Shown here in pieces: positions 9,973 through 53,240 of a stretch of DNA of 53,330 nt; position 1 is the first letter of the stretch, and every line of letters starts with the position of its first letter. A model generated the notes under the pieces. That model had not been told where the DNA came from. It saw only the letters and a list, made by a program, of their open reading frames with translations, and searched no databases. The position numbers were made by a program, and so were the translations under genes. The DNA comes from an uncultured beta proteobacterium (GTDB taxonomy: Bacteria; Pseudomonadota; Gammaproteobacteria; Burkholderiales; SG8-41): contig CAIZLW010000077.1 of NCBI GenBank assembly GCA_903933915.1, positions 1-53,330 of the forward strand, in the 5' to 3' direction.

Positions 9973-10067
9973 TGGCGGAAGAGAGTGGGAGTCGAACCCA
10001 CACAGGACCGCTCGCGGCCCCTACCGGGTTTGAAGTCCGGCCGCCCCACCGGGAGCGATTCCCTTCC
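9973..10067 (-). tRNA. selC: tRNA-Sec (anticodon UCA)
   Basis: 95 nt including an encoded CCA, the same length as E. coli selC. The acceptor stem is 8 bp (GGAAGGGA with TCTCTTCC, one G-U pair), the hallmark of tRNA-Sec. The anticodon loop is CTTCAAA with TCA at 10033-10031. There is a long GC-rich variable arm (around GGGGCCGC-GAG-CGGTCC) and a T-arm loop GTTCGAC. It reads UGA codons as selenocysteine together with SelB. It lies 5.6 kb from selA start and in the same window as a TGA-containing selenoprotein gene. Confidence 0.97.
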
Positions 10068-10087
10068 GTTGTTACTGCGTGGCCGTC

Positions 10088-10117
10088 ATTGTAAAACGGC
10101 GCGGTGTTTACGAGAAA
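10088..10117 (-). promoter_or_regulatory. Candidate selC promoter
   Basis: On the minus strand a TACAAT -10 (10093-10088) stands about 20 nt before the tRNA 5' end, with a weak -35 TTTCTC (10117-10112) at 18-nt spacing. The -10 is convincing; the -35 is poor. Confidence 0.4.
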
Positions 10118-10176
10118 TGGTGTTTAGAAGCGGCTGTGTCAGAAGCGATTGTTCCAGAATGTGGTGCAACTTGCGC

Positions 10177-10725
10177 TCAGGGTTTGCGCGCCGCGTTGAG
10201 CAGCACGGGTGCGATCTCAACAGTATTTTTTCCGTCGGTCAGCCATGTCGTGCCGTCTTGCACTGTGCATTGCAACTGCATTGTGCGCTGCGCCAGCGCG
10301 GCCATGATCTTGGTTGTAGCCTGGGGCAGTTCGATGACAGTCAGATTGTCCGGGCGCGCGAGTCCGGACTGGACGTCCTGCCACCAGCGTTCGGCGCCGC
10401 GGCCGTAAGCGTACAGGCGTACCTGCGTGGCACGACCGCAGGCTTTGCGCACAGCCTTTTCGTCGGGCAGGCCGACCTCGATCCACAGCTGAATGGCGCC
10501 GGTCAGGTCTTTTTCCCAGATGTCGGGCTCGTCTTCGTTGCTCAGCCCCTTGCCGAAGGCGAGGGCTTCGCTGGCGTTCAGCGCAAATGCCAGCAGCCGC
10601 GCCATCATGCGTTCATCGGTTTCGGACGGATGGCGCGCCAGCACCAGCGCATGAGTGGCGTAATAGCCGCGGTCCATGTCGGTGATGGTCAGGTCGATCT
10701 TGAAGATGGTTGCGCTGAGTGCCAT
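10177..10725 (-). CDS. yaeQ: YaeQ family protein
   Basis: 182 residues from the ATG at 10725 (MALSATIFKIDLTITDMDRG). This is the standard YaeQ start and length. The family has a PD-(D/E)xK nuclease-like fold; E. coli YaeQ can suppress loss of RfaH, but its biochemical role is unsettled. Conserved features include L-A-R-H-P-S-E-T-D-E-R-M-M near residue 30 and E-D-E-P-D-I-W near 65, which in this fold form the acidic pocket. It is divergent from the DUF1415 gene by only 20 bp, so the two promoters must overlap the coding starts. Confidence 0.92.
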   Translation of the reverse strand: MALSATIFKIDLTITDMDRGYYATHALVLARHPSETDERMMARLLAFALNASEALAFGKGLSNEDEPDIWEKDLTGAIQLWIEVGLPDEKAVRKACGRATQVRLYAYGRGAERWWQDVQSGLARPDNLTVIELPQATTKIMAALAQRTMQLQCTVQDGTTWLTDGKNTVEIAPVLLNAARKP

Positions 10726-10745
10726 GAGTTGGTTAAGGTACCAAA

Positions 10746-11330
10746 ATGATGACTGCAAGTGATGATCACGTAAAAGATGACAAAGTAACTGCGGCGACCC
10801 GCAACTGGCTGGAGAAAGCGGTGATCGGCCTCAACCTGTGCCCGTTTGCGCGCGCAGTATACGCCGCTGACCGTATCCGTTATGTGGTCAGCGATGCGAC
10901 GACCATCGAGGCGCTGCTCGAAGTGCTGGCGGCGGAGCTGGAAGTGCTGGCGGAAGCGGATGAAAACCAGACCGAAACCACGCTGCTGATCCATCCGCAG
11001 GTGCTGGGCGACTTTCTCGATTACAACGATTTTCTTGAAATGGCGGATATGCTGGTGGAAGAGCTCGGCTTGGACGGGATGCTGCAGGTGGCGAGTTTTC
11101 ATCCGCAGTACCAGTTCGCAGAAACCGAGTCCGACGATATCGAAAACTGCAGCAACCGCTCGCCGTATCCGACGCTGCACCTGTTGCGCGAATCCAGCGT
11201 GGAACGCGCGGTGGCCGCGCATCCGGATACCGAACAGATTTGCCGCGACAACATCAAGACACTGCGCCAGCTCGGTCGCGAGGGCTGGGCGCGGCTTGAC
11301 GTCGGTATGCCGCGAAGCAAGTCCCCTTGA
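10746..11330 (+). CDS. DUF1415 domain protein
   Basis: 194 residues covering one complete DUF1415 domain: T-R-N-W-L-E-K-A-V-I-G-L-N-L-C-P-F-A near residue 20, then F-H-P-x-Y-Q-F-A and N-R-S-P-Y-P-T-L-H-L-L-R-E near 120-145. The family is widespread in proteobacteria and has no established function. The conserved Cys-Pro-Phe-Ala segment could be a redox or metal site, but that is speculation. AAGG lies 8 nt before the ATG. The gene converges with the thioredoxin-reductase-like gene, 30 bp away. Confidence 0.88.
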   Translation: MMTASDDHVKDDKVTAATRNWLEKAVIGLNLCPFARAVYAADRIRYVVSDATTIEALLEVLAAELEVLAEADENQTETTLLIHPQVLGDFLDYNDFLEMADMLVEELGLDGMLQVASFHPQYQFAETESDDIENCSNRSPYPTLHLLRESSVERAVAAHPDTEQICRDNIKTLRQLGREGWARLDVGMPRSKSP

Positions 11331-11360
11331 GGGGCGCCGCGCAAACTCTGACCTGCGGGT

Positions 11361-12269
11361 TTATTTCAGGCGTGCAGCCACGGCATCCGCCGCGCGCCTG
11401 GCCTCCGCCATCGCATCTTCCAGGCTGCCGCCGCAGCCGCTGCGCACCGCGCCGACCGCCCACAGGCCGCTGACTGAAGTTTCCAGTGAGTTGCTGGTGG
11501 TGACAAAACCGTTGGCATCGCGTTTGACATCGGCTGGCAGAAAATCGCTGTTTGGTTTCAATCCAATGTAGGCGAACACTCCCGCGCAGGGGATTTCCTC
11601 GCTGCCTGCGCCGTTCTTGATACGCAGCTTCTCGACCATCTGTCCGCCGAGGATGGTTTCGACCGTGGTGCCAAAGCGGGTTTCGATTTTGTCGTTGCCC
11701 TGGATCTGGTCGATGAAGCGCTGCTGCGCGCGGAACGCGCTGCCGCGATGGATCAGGATCACCTTGCCGCAGTAGTGAGTCAGCACCTGCGCTTCCTGCA
11801 GCGCTGAATCACCGCCGCCGATCACCGCCACGGTTTCATTCTGGAACATCGGGCCGTCGCAGTCCGCGCATTTCGATACGCCGCGACCTTCGAATTCGCT
11901 TTCGCCGGGCACGCCCAGCGGCTTCAGGCTGGCGCCGCTGGCGACGATGACCTGGCGCGCACGGTAACTGCCGCTTTCGGTGGTCACGGTGTAGCCGCCA
12001 TCGGCGGCAGTCAGCGCGGTGACCGGTTCCTGGATGCTGATGACGCCGGCCTCGGCATTGGCGCCGGTCATCTCTGCGGCAAACGCGGCACCGCCAGCCT
12101 CGCCGCCGGGTGGTGCAGGGTCTAGTTCATTCACGTTGAGCACCAGGCCGCCGAAGATCTGCTGCTCGAAGGTAGCGGTGCTCAGCCCTTTTTTGGCGAG
12201 CGCGCCGGCAGCGGTAAGTCCGGCGATACCTTCGCCGATGATGATGACGTCAAATGCGGAAGTGGTCAT
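11361..12269 (-). CDS. Thioredoxin-reductase-like FAD/NAD(P)H oxidoreductase in the sel operon
   Basis: 302 residues with the low-molecular-weight thioredoxin reductase layout: FAD motif G-E-G-I-A-G at 12-17, redox motif C-A-D-C at 134-137 (E. coli TrxB has C-A-T-C), and NADPH motif V-I-G-G-G-D-S-A at 149-156. The C-terminal FAD motif reads G-L-W-A-V-G-A-V-R (269-277), with Ala where TrxB has the FAD-binding Asp. It follows selB by 21 bp and so is the third gene of selA-selB-this gene. Inference: it could reduce a thiol or selenol partner, for example the Sec-glutaredoxin at 19135-19905, or serve selenium metabolism. Ordinary thioredoxin is also possible. Confidence 0.85.
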   Translation of the reverse strand: MTTSAFDVIIIGEGIAGLTAAGALAKKGLSTATFEQQIFGGLVLNVNELDPAPPGGEAGGAAFAAEMTGANAEAGVISIQEPVTALTAADGGYTVTTESGSYRARQVIVASGASLKPLGVPGESEFEGRGVSKCADCDGPMFQNETVAVIGGGDSALQEAQVLTHYCGKVILIHRGSAFRAQQRFIDQIQGNDKIETRFGTTVETILGGQMVEKLRIKNGAGSEEIPCAGVFAYIGLKPNSDFLPADVKRDANGFVTTSNSLETSVSGLWAVGAVRSGCGGSLEDAMAEARRAADAVAARLK

Positions 12270-12290
12270 GGCGTTCTTTCAGTTCAGTTT

Positions 12291-14312
12291 TCAGTAACGT
12301 TTGTTGCGGAATGGGGGGCGTTGCTGAGGCTTGTTGGCCGAAGGTTTCTGGGCCTGCGGTTTTGCGACAGCACCCGGCGGAGGCGGCGGGGCCGCTTCAG
12401 CCGCACCGAGGATGGGTACAAAGTCCTTGCGCATCTTGCGTGCGTCACCGATGCGCTGGGTGACAGTGATGCCATCCAGTGCTTCAAGAATTTCAATCGC
12501 CAGCGTGCGGCCGATGCCGACGGCGTCGCGGTATTGCGCCGCGGTGAACTGGCCTTCGGGCTGTTTTGCGGCGACCGCCTGCGCAGTCGCAGCGAGTACC
12601 GCCATCGTCGGTTTCAGATAAAAACGTTCAGCGCCGACACGGTACAGATTGCCCGCCTTCATCTGCCGGTAGAGGAAATCCTTGAGGATGGCGTCTTTCA
12701 GTTTCAGCAGCGGCGCCAGTTCCTTCAGCGGCGGCGGATTGAATCCGGCGGACAGCAGCGCCGGCTGTACCGTTTCCCACAGTTTGACGTCGGCGCTGTT
12801 GGCGGTGGTGTCATGGCCGGGCTTGCGCACCAGCGAGCTGTGGACTTCGATTTGCCGCTGGTCGGCGAGCAGACGCAGCAGGTGGCCGAAGGCGTCGGCA
12901 TCGAGTTCCGGTGCCAGCGCCTGATGCAGCGTTTCGATTTCGATGCCCGACGCCTGCGGCTGGGCCTGGTGAAACGCAGTGACCTGTTTGACTGCGGCTT
13001 GATGCAGAGCGGCGAGCCGCGGCTGGGTGATGGCGAAGCGGCGATCCTTGCCCAGCGGCGTGAGCCCGGCCTTGTCATATGCGGCCGCGGCAATTTCCGG
13101 TAGCAGGTTGAAGATCGCTTCGAAATGCGCGAGGTCGATGGGGCGTTTGCTGTCGGCGGCGAGCGCGGTCAGTGCGGTCACGTGGTCCGCCGATTCGAGC
13201 GCGGCAAGGGTTGCGTCCCGCGCCTTGCTGCGCCGGGATGCCGGCGGGATCGGATCGATGATGACGCCGCCGCCGAGCGTACGTGTCGAGGACTGGTCAC
13301 GCAGGATAAAGCGGTCGCCATGCAGGGCGGATATCGGTTCATCCAGTACCAGCTGACCGATGCCGCCGCTGCCCGGGTTCAGCGCTTCGCCGCGTTTCAG
13401 CGAAACGCGGGCGGTGACATCCGCGGTGGCCAGGTGCAGGTGCACCGGCATCCAGTGCTTCAGCGGCTTGCCTTCGCCGGGGAGCACGTTCAGCCGCACA
13501 TCGATGCGTTGTGTCGGGCGGTGGATGGCTTCAGCCATGACCCAGTCGCCGCGGCGCACCGATTCAACGTCGGCGCCGGTCAGGTTCAGCGCGCAGCGTT
13601 CACCAGCGCGCGCTTCAGCAGCGGCCTTGCCGTGGATCTGGATGCTGCGCACGCGCACTTCGCGGCCTGCGGGGGAAATCACCAGCTTGTCACCGGCGCG
13701 CACGGTGCCGTTGAACACCGTGCCGGTGACGACAGTGCCGCTGCCGGCGATGCTGAATGCGCGATCGATGGCGTAACGCAGATGCTGGCCGCTGGAGCTG
13801 CGCTGGCCTTTGGCCGCAGCTTCGCGCAGCAGCAGGTTTTTCAGTTCAGCCATGCCGGTGCCGCTGACGGCGGATACCGGCAGGATCGGTACCTGTGCGA
13901 GTAACGTCGGTGCGAGCAACGCCCGCACCTGGTTGCGCACTTCTTCAATGCGCGCGGCGTCGACACGGTCGGTTTTGGTGATCACCGCGGCGCCGCAACC
14001 AATGCGCAGCAGATCGAGGATCTGCAGGTGTTCGATGGTCTGCGGCATCACGCCGTCGTCGGCGGCGACGATCAGCAGCGCAAAATCAATGCCGGAGACG
14101 CCGGCGAGCATATTGCGGATGAAACGTTCGTGGCCGGGTACGTCGACAAAACCGATCAGTCCGCCTTCGGCCAGCGGCAGGTAGGCAAAGCCGAGATCAA
14201 TGGATATGCCGCGGGCTTTTTCCTCGGGCAGGCGATCGGTGTCGGTGCCGGTCAGGGTTTTGACCAGCAGCGTTTTGCCGTGGTCGATGTGGCCTGCGGT
14301 GGCGACGATCAT
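12291..14312 (-). CDS. selB: Selenocysteine-specific elongation factor SelB
   Basis: 673 residues. SelB carries Sec-tRNA-Sec to a UGA codon by binding a SECIS hairpin just downstream of it. GTPase motifs are clear: G1 G-H-I-D-H-G-K-T at 7-14, G2 region G-I-S-I-D-L-G-F at 35-42, G3 D-V-P-G-H-E at 57-62 and G4 T-K-T-D at 112-115. EF-Tu-like domains 2 and 3 follow to about residue 350. The C-terminal half (about 370-630) is the winged-helix array that binds SECIS RNA. A Pro/Lys-rich tail of about 30 residues ends the protein. The start codon overlaps the selA stop by 4 nt. Confidence 0.97.
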
Positions 14313-15715
14313 TTGTTGCTGATCTTCAGTTGCGGCAGTTGCGCGATGAACTCGTCCTCATGATCGAGGCAGCGCAGGTCGAGCATCAGTGCGCCGTCCT
14401 TGATGTGGCCGATGACTGGGGCGGGCAATGCACGCAGTGCCGCAGCGAGTTTGTTGAGGTTGCCTTTTTTGCCGGCGGGCATGATCGCCAGTCCGCTGCT
14501 CGGCAGCACATCGACGGGCAGCGCGCCACTGCCGATCTGGCTTTTGCAGGCGGCAATTTCGACTTTCCAGTCATCACCCAGCGCTGCTGCGGCTGCGGGC
14601 AGCACACGGGCGGCCTGCGCAGCGATATCGCCAGCACTGCGCGTGAGCAGGCGCAGCGCCGGCAGTTCTTCATGCAGGCGTTCCGGATGCAGATACAGGC
14701 GCAGCACGGCATCCAGCGCGGTGAGTGTCAGTTTGTCGAGGCGTAACGCGCGTTTCATCGGATTCTTCGCGATGCGTGCCATCAGATCCTTGCGACCGAC
14801 CAAAAGGCCTGCCTGCGGGCCGCCGAGCAGCTTGTCGCCGCTGAAGGTGACGACGTCGGCGCCGTCGTTGAGTGTTTCGCGCGGCGTTCGCTCATGCGGC
14901 AGGCCGTATTCTTCAAGATTGATCAACGTGCCGCAGCCGAGATCGACGATGAAGGGCAGATTGTGTTCGTGAGCGAGTCTGGCCAGTTCACTTTCCGGCA
15001 CCGTCGCCGTGAAACCCTGCACCACGTAGTTGCTGGTGTGGACTTTCATGATCGCCGCGGTGCGCGATGTGATGGCGTCGGCAAAATCCTTGAGGTGGGT
15101 GCGATTGGTGGTGCCGACCTCGACCAGTTTCACGCCGGCGCGCGACATGATGTCAGGAATGCGGAACGATCCGCCGATTTCAATCAATTCACCGCGAGAC
15201 ACCAGCACTTCGCGTTTCAGCGCCAGCGAGTTTAGCGCGAGATAGACCGCGGCGGCATTGTTGTTGACGGCGACGGCTTTTTCGCCGCCGGTGAGTTCTG
15301 CCAGCCAGCGTTCGACATGGCTGTCGCGCTCGCCGCGGGCGCCGGTCGCGAGATCAAATTCCAGATTGACCGGACGGGTCATCGCCGCCATGACGGCTTC
15401 GGCGGCGCTTTTCGGCATCACCGCACGACCGAGATTGGTGTGCAGCACCGTGCCGGTGAGATTGAAGACCGGTTTCAGCGAGGGGGCGGCTGAACGTTCC
15501 AGCGCGATGGCGCAGGATTGCAGAAAGCGGGTTTCATCAAAGGCGCCGGCATCCGGCGCTGCAAGACGTTCGCGCTCGGCATCAAGCGCGCGGCGCAGGA
15601 AGGCGGTTACGCGTGTGCGGCCATGGGCCGCAATGAGGACTGCGACTGCTTCGCTACCGAGCAGTCGATCCACCGAAGGCAACGCGCGACGCGCGGCTGC
15701 GGCGGGATTCACCAT
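14309..15715 (-). CDS. selA: L-seryl-tRNA(Sec) selenium transferase SelA
   Basis: 468 residues, full length. SelA is a PLP enzyme that converts Ser-tRNA-Sec to Sec-tRNA-Sec using selenophosphate. The PLP lysine is in [10 protein letters not shown] at residue 295, the same number as in E. coli SelA. Other family blocks are L-H-T-N-L-G-R near 91 and N-N-N-A-A-A-V near 151. The first gene of the sel operon, it overlaps selB by 4 nt. No selD (selenophosphate synthase) gene is in the window, so it must lie elsewhere. The start ATG has no strong ribosome site. Confidence 0.97.
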
Positions 15716-18094: not shown

Positions 18095-19063
18095 ATGAAA
18101 ATGCGCGCGATGATGATGGCCTTGCTGCTGGCTGCGGGTGGTGCGCAGGCAGCCGATGCGTCCTATCCGACCAAGCCGATACGCTTCATTTGTCCTTACG
18201 CCCCTGGCGGCGCAGGCGATATTTTTACGCGTACCATCGGCCAGAAACTGAGTGAAGCGCTGGGCCAGGCCGTGGTGGTCGACAACCGGGCCGGCGCCAA
18301 TGGCGGTATCGGTACCGAGCTGGTGGCACGCGCGCCGGCCGACGGTTACACCTTGCTGATGGGCAACGCCGGGCCGATGACCGTCAATCCGAATCTGTAT
18401 CTGAAAATGGGGTATGACCCGGTCAAGGATTTTGCGCCGATCACTCAGGGCACTTCATACATGTATGTGCTGGTGGTGCCGCCCGCGGCGCCGGTGAAGT
18501 CGCTGCCGGATTTCATCAAGCTGCTGCAGTCCAAGCCTGGTCAGATGACCTACGGCTCGACCGGCATTGGCGGTGGCAATCACCTGTCGGGTGAACTGTT
18601 CAGCCTGATGACCAATACCAAATCCATCCATGTGCCGTACACCGGCAGCTCGCTGGCGCTGGCGGCGCTGCTCGGCGGCCAGATCAGCTATATGTTCGAT
18701 ACCGTGATCACCGCAGTGCCGCAGTTGCGCGGCGGCAAACTGCGAGCGATCGGTGTCACCGGCGGCAAACGCGCATCGGCCCTGCCGGACGTGCCGACGC
18801 TGAACGAACTCGGACTGAAGGGTTTTCAGCTGACGCAGTGGCAGGCGGTGGTGGCGCCGGCCGGTACGCCGAAACCGGTGATCGACCGTCTGAATCGTGA
18901 AGTGGTGAAGGCGCTGAAAATGCCGGATGTCATCGACCGGCTCGCAACCCAGGGCGGCAACGATCTCGTCGGCAACACGCCGGAAGAGTTTGCGCAGGTC
19001 ATCAAGAGCGATCTCGCGCTGTACGCCAAAATCATCAAGGCTGCCGGCATCAAACCGCAGTAG
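18095..19063 (+). CDS. Bug/TctC-family receptor
   Basis: 322 residues with a signal peptide ending about residue 20 (G-G-A-Q-A-A-D). GGAGA lies 8-9 nt before the ATG. Bug blocks are Y-P-T-K-P-I-R-F-I-C-P-Y, A-P-G-G-A-G-D, V-V-D-N-R-A-G-A-N-G-G and I-H-V-P-Y-T-G. The third receptor of this type in the window, it is divergent from the amidohydrolase/Bug unit and followed by a strong bidirectional terminator. Confidence 0.93.
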   Translation: MKMRAMMMALLLAAGGAQAADASYPTKPIRFICPYAPGGAGDIFTRTIGQKLSEALGQAVVVDNRAGANGGIGTELVARAPADGYTLLMGNAGPMTVNPNLYLKMGYDPVKDFAPITQGTSYMYVLVVPPAAPVKSLPDFIKLLQSKPGQMTYGSTGIGGGNHLSGELFSLMTNTKSIHVPYTGSSLALAALLGGQISYMFDTVITAVPQLRGGKLRAIGVTGGKRASALPDVPTLNELGLKGFQLTQWQAVVAPAGTPKPVIDRLNREVVKALKMPDVIDRLATQGGNDLVGNTPEEFAQVIKSDLALYAKIIKAAGIKPQ

Positions 19064-19075
19064 CTGCATGGTGCG

Positions 19076-19113
19076 AAAAAACGCCGGCATCTGTTGATGC
19101 CGGCGTTTTATTT
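19076..19113. terminator. Bidirectional terminator between the Bug gene and the selenoprotein gene
   Basis: A perfect 12-bp stem, 19080-19091 with 19096-19107, and a TGTT loop, flanked by an A run on the left and a T run on the right. It ends the Bug gene (+) and the selenoprotein gene (-), whose stop is at 19135. Confidence 0.9.
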
Positions 19114-19134: not shown

Positions 19135-19905
19135 TTATTCCCACAGACGTTCGGGCAGGGGCAAGCCTGCCAACTGTTCCGGCGTCAGCGGTTGATCGGG
19201 CGTGATGCCGATGCTTTCCAGTACCGCGGCCAACTGCCGCCCATGCTGTGCGCTGTGCCAGGTTGAACGCTCGTAAAGCATGTAGATGGGCTGCATGCCG
19301 AAGAAGGTCTTGATCTTCTGCTGGCAGGATTTGTCTTCGAGCTTGTCCCACCAGTTTTCCAGCCGCGCGATGACAGTATCGCCATAACGCGCGATTTCGT
19401 CGCCGGTCATGAAGGTGCCGTCTTTCGGCGGCACGTTCGCCAGTTGCACGGAGTATTCGACGCCACCCTCGACGGACTCCAGGTAGGCCTCGCCGATGCG
19501 GAAGATGTGGTGACACATCAGCCGGATGGAGCGGTCGCGGTTGGGAATGACCCGTTCCAGCAGTTTTGCGTCTGGCAACTGGCGGATCAGACGCTGCGCC
19601 GCGCGCAGCACCATGATCCAGCGCTTGATCAGTTCTTCGGGAGGCAGAGGCTTGTGGCCGGTACCCTGAAGGCCGACAAACTCGGCAACGTCCTCCAGGT
19701 TTTGTCCAAAGACAAACTGATCGCCCTTGGCGACCACGGGGACATTGCGCACACCGAACTTGAGCAGGCGTTCGCGGCCCGCCGGATCGTTCAGAACGTC
19801 GATGGCGATGAAATCAATTTTTTTGCGCGAAAGAAACTCTTTCGCCCGGAGACAGCTGCTTCAGCCCGGTTGGGTAAACAGAATGAACTGTTCGTTGGCG
19901 CCCAT
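19135..19905 (-). CDS. Selenoprotein: glutaredoxin-like domain (U-S-S-C) fused to a DinB-like domain; TGA at 19863-19861 is Sec15
   Basis: Read from the ATG at 19905 (AGAGG about 7 nt upstream), the frame runs 14 codons, meets TGA, and continues open to TAA at 19135: 256 residues with Sec at position 15. The N-terminus reads MGANEQFILFTQPG-U-SSC, so the TGA is exactly at the first active-site position of a glutaredoxin-type C-x-x-C. The rest of the fold follows: an amphipathic helix, strand F-I-A-I-D-V, cis-proline N-V-P (Pro56), and G-Q-N-L-E-D-V-A. Residues about 85-256 look like a DinB-type helical bundle with candidate metal histidines 132/133, 217 and 221 (W-H-S-A-Q-H). A SECIS-like hairpin follows the TGA, and selA, selB and selC lie nearby. 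An internal-ATG call at 19752 would delete the active site. Likely a cytosolic selenol redox enzyme; its substrate is unknown. Confidence 0.93.
19827..19845 (-). promoter_or_regulatory. Bacterial SECIS element of the glutaredoxin-DinB selenoprotein
   Basis: Minus-strand RNA: stem GCGAAAG (19845-19839), loop AGUUU, stem CUUUCGC (19833-19827), a perfect 7-bp hairpin. The loop begins 22 nt after the UGA and has G in its second position followed by U. This fits the published bacterial SECIS rule (G in the first two loop bases, loop about 16-37 nt from UGA). The hairpin is inside the coding sequence, as required for SelB-dependent decoding. There is no bulged U in the stem of the kind known in E. 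coli fdhF. Confidence 0.85.
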
Positions 19906-19941
19906 GTTTGACCTCTTTGCAGGCGGTTGAATGAAGCGGCA

Positions 19942-20029: not shown

Positions 20030-20635
20030 ATGATGAAGCTGATCGGGACTGTCACCAGTCCCTACACACGAAAGGTGCGCGTAGTTCTTGTTGAGAAGCG
20101 CATGGAATGCGAGTTCATCACGGACACGCCGAACACGCCGGACAGCGCGGTTGCCCGTTACAACCCGCTTGGGAAAATCCCGGTGCTGGTGCTTGATGAC
20201 GAAAATACGATTTTTGACTCGCGGGTGATCGTCGAGCATCTGGACAATGCGAGTCCCGGCAACCGGCTGATCCCCGAGGAAAAACGTCCGCGCATCCAGG
20301 TGCGGCGCTGGGAAGCGCTGGCCGACGGATGCACGGACGCTGCGATTGCGCTGGTCAACGAAAAACGCAAACCGGCGGAGCAGCAATCACCGGAGTGGAT
20401 CATCCGGCAGCAGGGCAAGGTTGATCGTTCGTTGCAGGCGATGGCGGATGACCTTGCGGCCAAACCGTGGTGTGCCGGTGATTTTTTCACGCTGGCTGAT
20501 ATTGCGGTCGGCTGCTGCCTGGGATGGCTGGAGTTGCGGGTGCCCGATCTGCCGTGGCGGCGCAATCATCCGAATCTGGCGCGGCTCGCCGACAAACTCG
20601 CGCAGCGCCCGTCCTTTAAAGATACCGCAGCCTGA
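20030..20635 (+). CDS. Glutathione S-transferase family protein
   Basis: 201 residues with a complete thioredoxin-like N-domain (about 1-80) and helical C-domain (about 85-200). The N-terminus has the G-site segment T-S-P-Y-T-R-K-V-R, then N-P-L-G-K-I-P-V-L with the cis-proline, and D-S-R-V-I-V-E-H-L for glutathione binding. The C-domain holds F-T-L-A-D-I-A-V-G, the usual structural motif. It lies 124 bp from, and divergent to, the selenoprotein gene, suggesting shared thiol or electrophile stress control (inference). The stop abuts the mnmA stop on the other strand. Confidence 0.92.
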   Translation: MMKLIGTVTSPYTRKVRVVLVEKRMECEFITDTPNTPDSAVARYNPLGKIPVLVLDDENTIFDSRVIVEHLDNASPGNRLIPEEKRPRIQVRRWEALADGCTDAAIALVNEKRKPAEQQSPEWIIRQQGKVDRSLQAMADDLAAKPWCAGDFFTLADIAVGCCLGWLELRVPDLPWRRNHPNLARLADKLAQRPSFKDTAA

Positions 20636-30848: not shown

Positions 30849-32120
30849 ATGACAATTTCCAGACGCGAATTCGTGAAATGGGCCTCGGCAGGCGCCGGGG
30901 TGGCAACACTGGCCGGTTGCGCGGCCGGTGGCCGCGGCAGCGCCGGACGGGTTGTCGTGGTCGGCGGCGGTTATGGCGGCGCGACGGCGGCGAAATACGT
31001 GAAGATGTGGGCGCCGGACATCGATGTCACGCTGATCGAAAGCAACGACTATTTCGTGTCCTGCCCGATCAGCAATCTGGTGCTGGGCGGCAACGCGCAG
31101 ATGAACCAGATCACCTTCAGCTACGACGGGCTGCGCAGCCGCTGCATCCGCGTGCTGAAAGATACCGCCATCGCCCTTGATGCGGCCAAGAAGCAGGTCA
31201 CGCTGGCCAGCGGCGGTTCCGTGCCCTATGACCGGGTCATCGTGTCACCGGGCGTTGATTTCATGTTCGACCAGATTCCCGGGCTGAAGTCGGCTGATGC
31301 CCAGAGCCGCATCCTGCATGCGTGGAAGGCCGGTGCGCAGACGGTGGCCTTGCGCAAGCAGCTGGAATCGATGCGTGACGGCGGCGTCTATGCGCTGCAG
31401 ATCCCGATGGCGCCGTATCGCTGCCCGCCGGGACCGTATGAACGCATCTGCCAGGTCGCCGACTATTTCAAGAAGGCCAAGCCGAAATCGAAAATCCTTG
31501 TGCTGGATGCCAATCCCGATCTGGTGTCGAAAAAGGGTCTGTTTCTCGCCGCATGGAATGGCCTCTACAAAGACATGATCGAATACCGGCCGAACAGCGA
31601 GATCGCCGATGTCGACGTCAAGGGCATGACGGTCAAGCTGCAGTTCGATGACGTGAAGGCCGATGTCATCAATGTCGTGCCGGCGCAGCGCGCCGCCGAT
31701 TTCGCCGTCAGAAGTGGGCTGATTACCGCCAACAACCGCTGGTGCGGCGTCGACTGGACGACCTGCGAATCAACCGCCGTGAAAGGCGTGCATGTACTCG
31801 GCGATGCCACGCTGTCGGCGCCGGCGATGCCGAAATCCGGCAGCATGGCCAACCAGCACGCGAAGGTCTGCGCGGCGGCGGTAGTGGCGATGATCAAGGG
31901 GCAGCCGGTCAACGCCGACACCATGATGATGAACACCTGTTACAGCTTTGTCAGCAGTGACAGCGCGATGCACGTCGCCTCGGTGCATCGTTATGATCCG
32001 GCGCAAAAGAATCTGGTTGTGGTGAAGGGCAGTGGTGGCGTGTCGACCGAAGCGAGCACGGCAGAAGGGGCTTATGCCTGGGGCTGGGCGCGCAATATCT
32101 GGGCGGAAGCGCTGGCCTGA
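30849..32120 (+). CDS. Flavocytochrome c sulfide dehydrogenase flavoprotein subunit (FccB-like)
   Basis: 423 residues. A Tat signal (S-R-R-E-F-V-K-W near residues 4-11) ends with a Cys (L-A-G-C) that could also be a lipobox. The FAD motif is V-V-V-G-G-G-Y-G-G at about residues 35-43, and the conserved C-P-I-S-N region carries a redox Cys near 75. The C-terminal FCSD flavin-binding domain ends W-G-W-A-R-N-I-W. It oxidises sulfide to sulfur/polysulfide with electrons passing to the adjacent cytochrome. The Cys linked to FAD in classic FCSD cannot be confirmed by eye. Confidence 0.9.
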   Translation: MTISRREFVKWASAGAGVATLAGCAAGGRGSAGRVVVVGGGYGGATAAKYVKMWAPDIDVTLIESNDYFVSCPISNLVLGGNAQMNQITFSYDGLRSRCIRVLKDTAIALDAAKKQVTLASGGSVPYDRVIVSPGVDFMFDQIPGLKSADAQSRILHAWKAGAQTVALRKQLESMRDGGVYALQIPMAPYRCPPGPYERICQVADYFKKAKPKSKILVLDANPDLVSKKGLFLAAWNGLYKDMIEYRPNSEIADVDVKGMTVKLQFDDVKADVINVVPAQRAADFAVRSGLITANNRWCGVDWTTCESTAVKGVHVLGDATLSAPAMPKSGSMANQHAKVCAAAVVAMIKGQPVNADTMMMNTCYSFVSSDSAMHVASVHRYDPAQKNLVVVKGSGGVSTEASTAEGAYAWGWARNIWAEALA

Positions 32121-53098: not shown

Positions 53099-53240
53099 AC
53101 AGTCTCCTTCGCGATAGCGAAATCACACGAAGGCAGCACTTGGACGCGGGGCGTCTGGGTGCGGGGAGTCTGCCAACGTCCCCGGATGCAGCGGCCTGAT
53201 TCTGCTCGGCAGGCGCCGCACTGTCAACACAGTGCCGCGG

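Follow-up and report, generated by a model that had tools for sequence, protein, structure and literature searches.

Two kinds of described proteins bear on the function of the gene analysed here. Glutaredoxin 1 of Clostridium oremlandii (PDB 7c10, 7c12) is a native selenoprotein whose cycle is described as using glutathione for reduction (PMC7642778), and the DinB/STL enzymes of Bacillus subtilis are metal-dependent bacillithiol transferases with three conserved histidines (PMC5815605; see also PMC10950700). In bacteria, the SECIS element that accompanies a selenocysteine (Sec) codon is a hairpin right after the TGA with a small, G-containing apical loop (PMC1088965). The inventory of 119 prokaryotic selenoprotein families and subfamilies in Table 1 of PMC13188914 lists no DinB protein, and the word DinB is absent from its text. 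Full-length glutaredoxin-DinB proteins with Cys at the first redox position are already known in databases, and we found no Sec form in the literature searched, which included few subscription papers and no preprints. A Sec form would extend the list of 119 families, from which this domain pair is missing.

A glutaredoxin-DinB frame with an in-frame TGA

The window, i.e. the whole stretch of 53,330 nucleotides that was analysed, contains on its minus strand a frame of 256 codons running from an ATG at 19905 to a TAA at 19135. Its lone internal stop is a TGA at codon 15 (19863-19861), in agreement with the preliminary description, in which the frame was open except for this codon. The context of codon 15 is MGANEQFILFTQPG-U-SSC, with S-S-C18 directly after the TGA. 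The features of the gene are as follows.

19135..19905, minus strand: coding frame for the predicted Sec-glutaredoxin/DinB protein, 256 codons long, with its TGA at codon 15
19861..19863, minus strand: the TGA inside the frame, predicted to encode Sec as U15 of U-S-S-C; of 101 sequences, 92 have TGA here and 9 have Cys
19912..19916, minus strand: AGAGG, candidate ribosome site six bases before ATG 19905
19828..19844, minus strand: SECIS-like hairpin CGAAAGA-GUU-UCUUUCG, 17 nt, lowest synonymous entropy
19675..19887, minus strand: glutaredoxin-fold domain, about aa 7-77, from Pfam and the structure model
19171..19653, minus strand: DinB-fold domain that spans roughly aa 85-245 and includes H133, H217 and H221, from Pfam, the model and conservation

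The proposed fusion is borne out by two Pfam profiles that both score above their cut-offs, PF00462 (Glutaredoxin, aa 8-65, 49.2 bits against 22.9, with C substituted for U) and PF12867 (DinB_2, aa 101-225, 31.9 bits against 24.8). A structure model built with Cys replacing Sec15 gave a confident two-domain fold of a redoxin and a DinB domain (pLDDT 94.6, pTM 0.90). The Foldseek list also contains glutathione S-transferases, which align to the query with TM-scores of 0.26-0.37 and, in most cases, an rmsd over 9; we interpreted these as a redoxin fold with helices after it and set them aside. The redox pair and the cis-Pro position of a glutaredoxin, i.e. U or C at position 15, C18 and P56, are present in all 101 sequences, and the residue earlier designated cis-Pro56 is thus at an invariant position.

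For the DinB part, four candidate metal histidines had been put forward. Three of them are conserved in the 92 TGA forms (H133 in 92, H217 in 88 and H221 in 89), as are the three metal histidines of the DinB thiol transferases, and the fourth, H132, is found in only 60. The triad H133/H217/H221 is also present in 9/9 Cys forms. This conservation suggests a working metal site, and the site is probably not needed in every TGA form, because H217 is missing in four of the 92 and H221 in three. Three sequences (L092, L093 and L094, from G050, G024 and G050, respectively) have a degenerate DinB domain in which the metal histidines are lost, and they retain the predicted Sec and the hairpin.

Standard gene calling had been expected to start this gene at 19752 and to drop the active site, and database entries follow that expectation. 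A search with the window product gave 3092 matches, of which the best 120 have 192-238 residues; the first residue is M in 80 of these, V in 34 and L in 6, and the V starts are what a start at GTG 19752 would give. No UxxC motif was found in any of these best 120 of 3092 proteins, so that in each of them annotation has removed the active site. The corresponding search with a Cys form gave 1588 matches, and all 120 listed have Cys at the position.

A hairpin under synonymous constraint

Just after the TGA, the predicted hairpin has a 7-bp stem and a GUU apical loop, in line with the position and the small G-bearing loop of bacterial SECIS elements. Its sequence, CGAAAGAGTTTCTTTCG at 19844-19828, is identical in 87/92 TGA copies; among the five deviating copies, three have an A to G change in the stem that leaves a G-U pair and two have changes in the loop. 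The string is retained even in L092-L094, which at the protein level share 25-29% identity with the window product. When the 243 codon columns of the TGA forms (92 sequences) are ranked by synonymous entropy, the lowest six are exactly codons +6 to +11 counted from the TGA: five have an entropy of 0 and codon +7 has 0.207, and the next-lowest column elsewhere has 0.39. Assuming exchangeable columns, the probability that the six lowest fall in one run is about 9e-10.

Substitution rates in 72 sequences give the same picture, with pS being 0.69 at codons -9 to -1, 0.79 at +1 to +5, 0.000 at +6 to +11 and 0.70 at +12 to +29. The corresponding pN/pS values are 0.27 at -9 to -1, 0.16 at +1 to +5 and 0.40 at +12 to +29, indicating purifying selection before the TGA (0.27) and after it (0.16-0.40, hairpin excluded), in keeping with the continuous coding signal on either side noted in the preliminary description. 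The selection between the ATG and the TGA also indirectly supports translation from ATG 19905, pN/pS being 0.27 over codons -9 to -1.

Comparison of the TGA forms shows the predicted hairpin to be under constraint at the RNA level. The SECIS-like hairpin of the preliminary description is therefore upheld on the basis of synonymous constraint and not of folding energy, which is ordinary (z -0.70; 45/200 shuffles fold at least as well) and which failed as proof of a SECIS, the hairpin of SelD having a z of 0.38. The 17-nt string is absent from the eight Cys sequences displayed, and no further copy was found in the gene's own genome with up to 2 mismatches allowed. A different sequence occupies the hairpin position in the Sec form of G933, a genome of another class. 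The SelD of the gene's own genome (L183, G000:C12:34790-35719) itself contains a TGA, in the context GGG-U-GCK, and is predicted to have a GUU apical loop like that of the window gene. As a near-frozen element of 17 nt, the hairpin provides a clean natural test case for recognition by SelB.

Distribution, gene order and selenocysteine machinery

One condition set in the preliminary description was that relatives should carry Sec or Cys at this codon, and such relatives were found. Among 101 different full-length sequences (own included; fetched loci covering most of the profile), codon 15 is TGA in 92 and Cys in 9, and C18 and P56 are present in 101/101. The codon display covers 100 of them, L156, which reads RQGCSSC, having been dropped by a motif filter. 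The sequence from G933 came later and stands outside these counts.

According to the match table, 63 of 100 genomes (own included) have a match and 57 have a copy holding one TGA. The remaining six are G009 with a fragment lacking the N-terminus, G075 with a Cys form, and four genomes (G073, G081, G082 and G093) in which the glutaredoxin match is short or weak. In a number of genomes there is a second copy, about 47-57% identical, which likewise contains one TGA. Three further samples, which partly overlap with each other and with the 100 genomes, extend the search. In the order sample of 399 genomes there were 36 matches at 1e-15, 28 with TGA and 8 stop-free; in the class sample of 369 genomes there were 23 matches at 1e-8, full-length in two, the gene's own genome and G219 (Cys); and in the phylum sample of 398 genomes there were two matches at 1e-15, the own genome and G933. 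The latter is a one-contig genome of another class with a TGA at the same codon and a SelB above the cut-off; its gene (L186, G933:C1:3614076-3614810) shares the Sec codon and differs in hairpin sequence. Metagenome records titled Bordetella parapertussis contain near-identical copies (L033 95%, L041 90%), and these titles are probably wrong.

A quick tree built from 120 sequences (93 U and 27 C, 18 of the latter from the 120 listed database proteins) requires 2 changes of the Sec/Cys label; it has no outgroup and its long branches meet (L096 and L163, among others), so that it does not polarise the change between Sec and Cys. G933 forms a long branch among the Cys forms, and this placement is an unsure hint that Sec may have been gained a second time.

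The genes for Sec incorporation lie downstream of the gene in the window.

14309..15715, minus strand: selA (TIGR00474, 568.1 bits, cut-off 267.9)
12291..14312, minus strand: selB (TIGR00475, 420.8 bits, cut-off 242.25)
11361..12269, minus strand: member of the sel cluster that resembles thioredoxin reductase and encodes a C-A-D-C motif (TIGR01292, 229.7 bits, below the cut-off of 343.45)
9973..10067, minus strand: selC, tRNA-Sec

The vicinity of selA, selB and selC noted earlier is thus confirmed (all on the minus strand at 9973-15715), and with selD all four are present in the genome. Three genes lie between the glutaredoxin-DinB gene and selA, and the two are probably not co-transcribed, because one of the three is on the opposite strand (18095-19063) and a terminator-like scored inverted repeat is located between them at 19078-19109. 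A glutathione S-transferase-like gene at 20030-20635 on the plus strand is divergent from the gene and is a neighbour in many of 24 named loci. Elsewhere in the window, the gene at 30849-32120 on the plus strand encodes a relative of NF049943 (type III sulfide quinone reductase, selenoprotein subtype) that scores 101.6 bits, well short of the cut-off of 525, and the minus strand carries a chrB-b RNA motif at 53133-53184 (RF03086; 55.1 bits, gathering score 36.5).

In the 24 named loci, selA is downstream on the same strand in 20, and the contigs of the other 4 end at most 1.3 kb from the gene. All 18 loci that extend past selB have the reductase gene behind it, with other genes intervening in L041, and mnmA is upstream in 22/24, L048 starting too late and L054 being without mnmA. 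Outside the genome's own family, f6 (L165, L167) again has the order mnmA-grx/dinB-selA-selB-TrxR-selC. In f13 (L166) the aligned gene and selA ends are about 15 nt apart, with no match to mnmA or the reductase, and in f3 (L174, G061) the gene is absent from the 16 kb around selA-selB. A general partnership with the thioredoxin reductase gene was rejected, as L166, L168, L169 and L174 have no match to it near selB.

Only SelB matches above the cut-off were counted, because control genomes also give matches below it. On this basis SelB is present in 54/57 genomes with a TGA copy and in 12/43 others (Fisher p 8e-13, uncorrected for kinship). The TGA genomes without such a SelB in their assemblies are G029, G036 (partial SelB) and G041. 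In a further set, it is present in 11/13 TGA genomes (not in G476 and G771) and in 3/9 Cys genomes. G522 and G601 have two SelB matches above the cut-off each.

Combining the alignment of TGA with Cys, the RNA-constrained hairpin, the selection on both sides of the TGA and the linkage to selA-selB-selC, we suggest that the conserved TGA at codon 15 is almost certainly read as Sec and that the product is a predicted selenoprotein. A real stop at the TGA, with an internal start (GTG 19752, for example) yielding the DinB part alone, corresponds to how the database entries are annotated and is very improbable given the Cys in 9 relatives, the constraint on either side of the TGA, the frozen hairpin and the association with SelB. 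Even less credible is an assembly error or a local pseudogene: the source assembly, a draft, comprises 246 contigs and shows 7.19% contamination, yet the same TGA occurs in 57/100 genomes searched, which also disfavours an error in the sequencing reads, and in a one-contig genome of another class. The pattern of TGA and Cys in the relatives, together with the selection, led us to reject stop, pseudogene and sequencing error alike, and reading of the TGA as a residue other than Sec was rejected because relatives without the TGA carry Cys there.

A possible Sec-dependent thiol transferase and its relation to described systems

Our preferred reading, to which we assign a probability of about 0.6, is that the protein is a selenoprotein with a coupled mechanism in which the U-x-x-C glutaredoxin domain works together with the predicted DinB metal site of three histidines. 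In this model, the UGA would be decoded by SelB with tRNA-Sec, aided by the GUU-loop hairpin. The chemistry that follows is less certain. By analogy with DinB thiol transferases, the DinB metal centre might activate a thiol, either glutathione or a thiol conjugate; Sec15 would attack the resulting disulfide or conjugate, with resolution by C18; and glutathione or the thioredoxin reductase-like product of the sel cluster would re-reduce the Sec15/C18 pair. Working in that way, the fusion would be a Sec-dependent thiol transferase or reductase that targets oxidised or electrophile-damaged thiols. From the BstA-type enzymes and C. oremlandii Glutaredoxin 1 we infer that the metal site and the U-x-x-C motif could act on one substrate, and Sec-dependent thiol chemistry at the predicted DinB metal site is by this analogy our best inference.

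Alternatively, this may be a selenoprotein in which the glutaredoxin domain reduces protein disulfides by itself, as an NrdH/YruB-like dithiol reductase, and the DinB domain serves only as a scaffold for docking or dimerisation. In favour of this model, YruB and Uxx_star are the best NCBIfam matches of the redoxin part, the family profile matches the structure of NrdH (4hs1, 1.5e-11) better than that of E. coli Grx3 (1fov, 9.3e-05), L092-L094 keep Sec and hairpin despite their lost metal histidines, and a C-A-D-C reductase gene is part of the sel cluster. Given that the histidine triad is present in at least 88/92 TGA and 9/9 Cys forms, suggesting a working metal site, we regard this model as unlikely, if a serious competitor. 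Clearly less probable is a selenoprotein whose Sec would serve to bind or handle metals or metalloids (mercury or arsenic, for example) instead of reducing disulfides. Sec in UXX-star and other proteins may act as a metal ligand according to the review PMC13188914; however, the resolving C18 is present in 101/101 sequences, as in redox-active U-x-x-C proteins, and no metal resistance gene was found among the part of the window genes that was scanned.

More tentatively, and with the odds somewhat against the combination, the protein may be the first DinB-superfamily selenoenzyme and a main reason why this Burkholderiales clade keeps its Sec machinery. In this reading a single polypeptide would hold a Sec redoxin and the metal-centred thiol transferase that it feeds, a chemistry so far undescribed, and Sec would have arisen a second time at the same codon in the class of G933. 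The proposal that this gene is a main reason for retaining the machinery is based on the gene travelling with selA-selB-selC and on the formate dehydrogenase-like genes being stop-free: the 18 matching stretches in the gene's own genome contain no in-frame stop. With the gene near selA-selB-selC and these genes stop-free, the question of why Sec is kept is directly testable.

Placed beside the described systems, the protein resembles UXX-star (NF041212, its relatives and the HUGP/GUXX-star fusion NF045501) in that its predicted Sec takes the first of the redox positions in a domain of glutaredoxin type. UXX-star family 1 is listed as UxxT (PMC13188914, Table 1) as opposed to UxxC here, and the fusion partner here is DinB. 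Membership in these families was rejected on scores: 40.6 bits against the cut-off of 66 for NF041212 and below every UXX-star cut-off (66-325), 34.7 against 85.75 for NrdH (TIGR02194) and 41.8 against 88.55 for YruB (TIGR02196); three Cys relatives and one truncated relative likewise score below the cut-offs. C. oremlandii Glutaredoxin 1, as described in the available text, is a single domain with a U-P-x-C motif and without a DinB part, unlike the window protein. The three conserved histidines resemble those of B. subtilis BstA, a member of the metal-dependent family (PMC5815605), whereas for the DinB/STL thiol transferases (BstA-H of B. subtilis; mycothiol S-transferase, 8f5v) the available text reports neither Sec nor a redoxin domain. 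Closest are the Cys forms of the glutaredoxin-DinB fusion in Burkholderiales, which databases list under 'glutaredoxin' or 'DinB family protein'. They have Cys for Sec, the frozen 17-nt string is lacking in the 8 sequences compared, and in the three SelB-bearing Cys genomes inspected the gene lies outside the stretch around selB; yet they have the same two domains, the same length, the same histidine triad and a [PQ]GC-[ST]SC motif.
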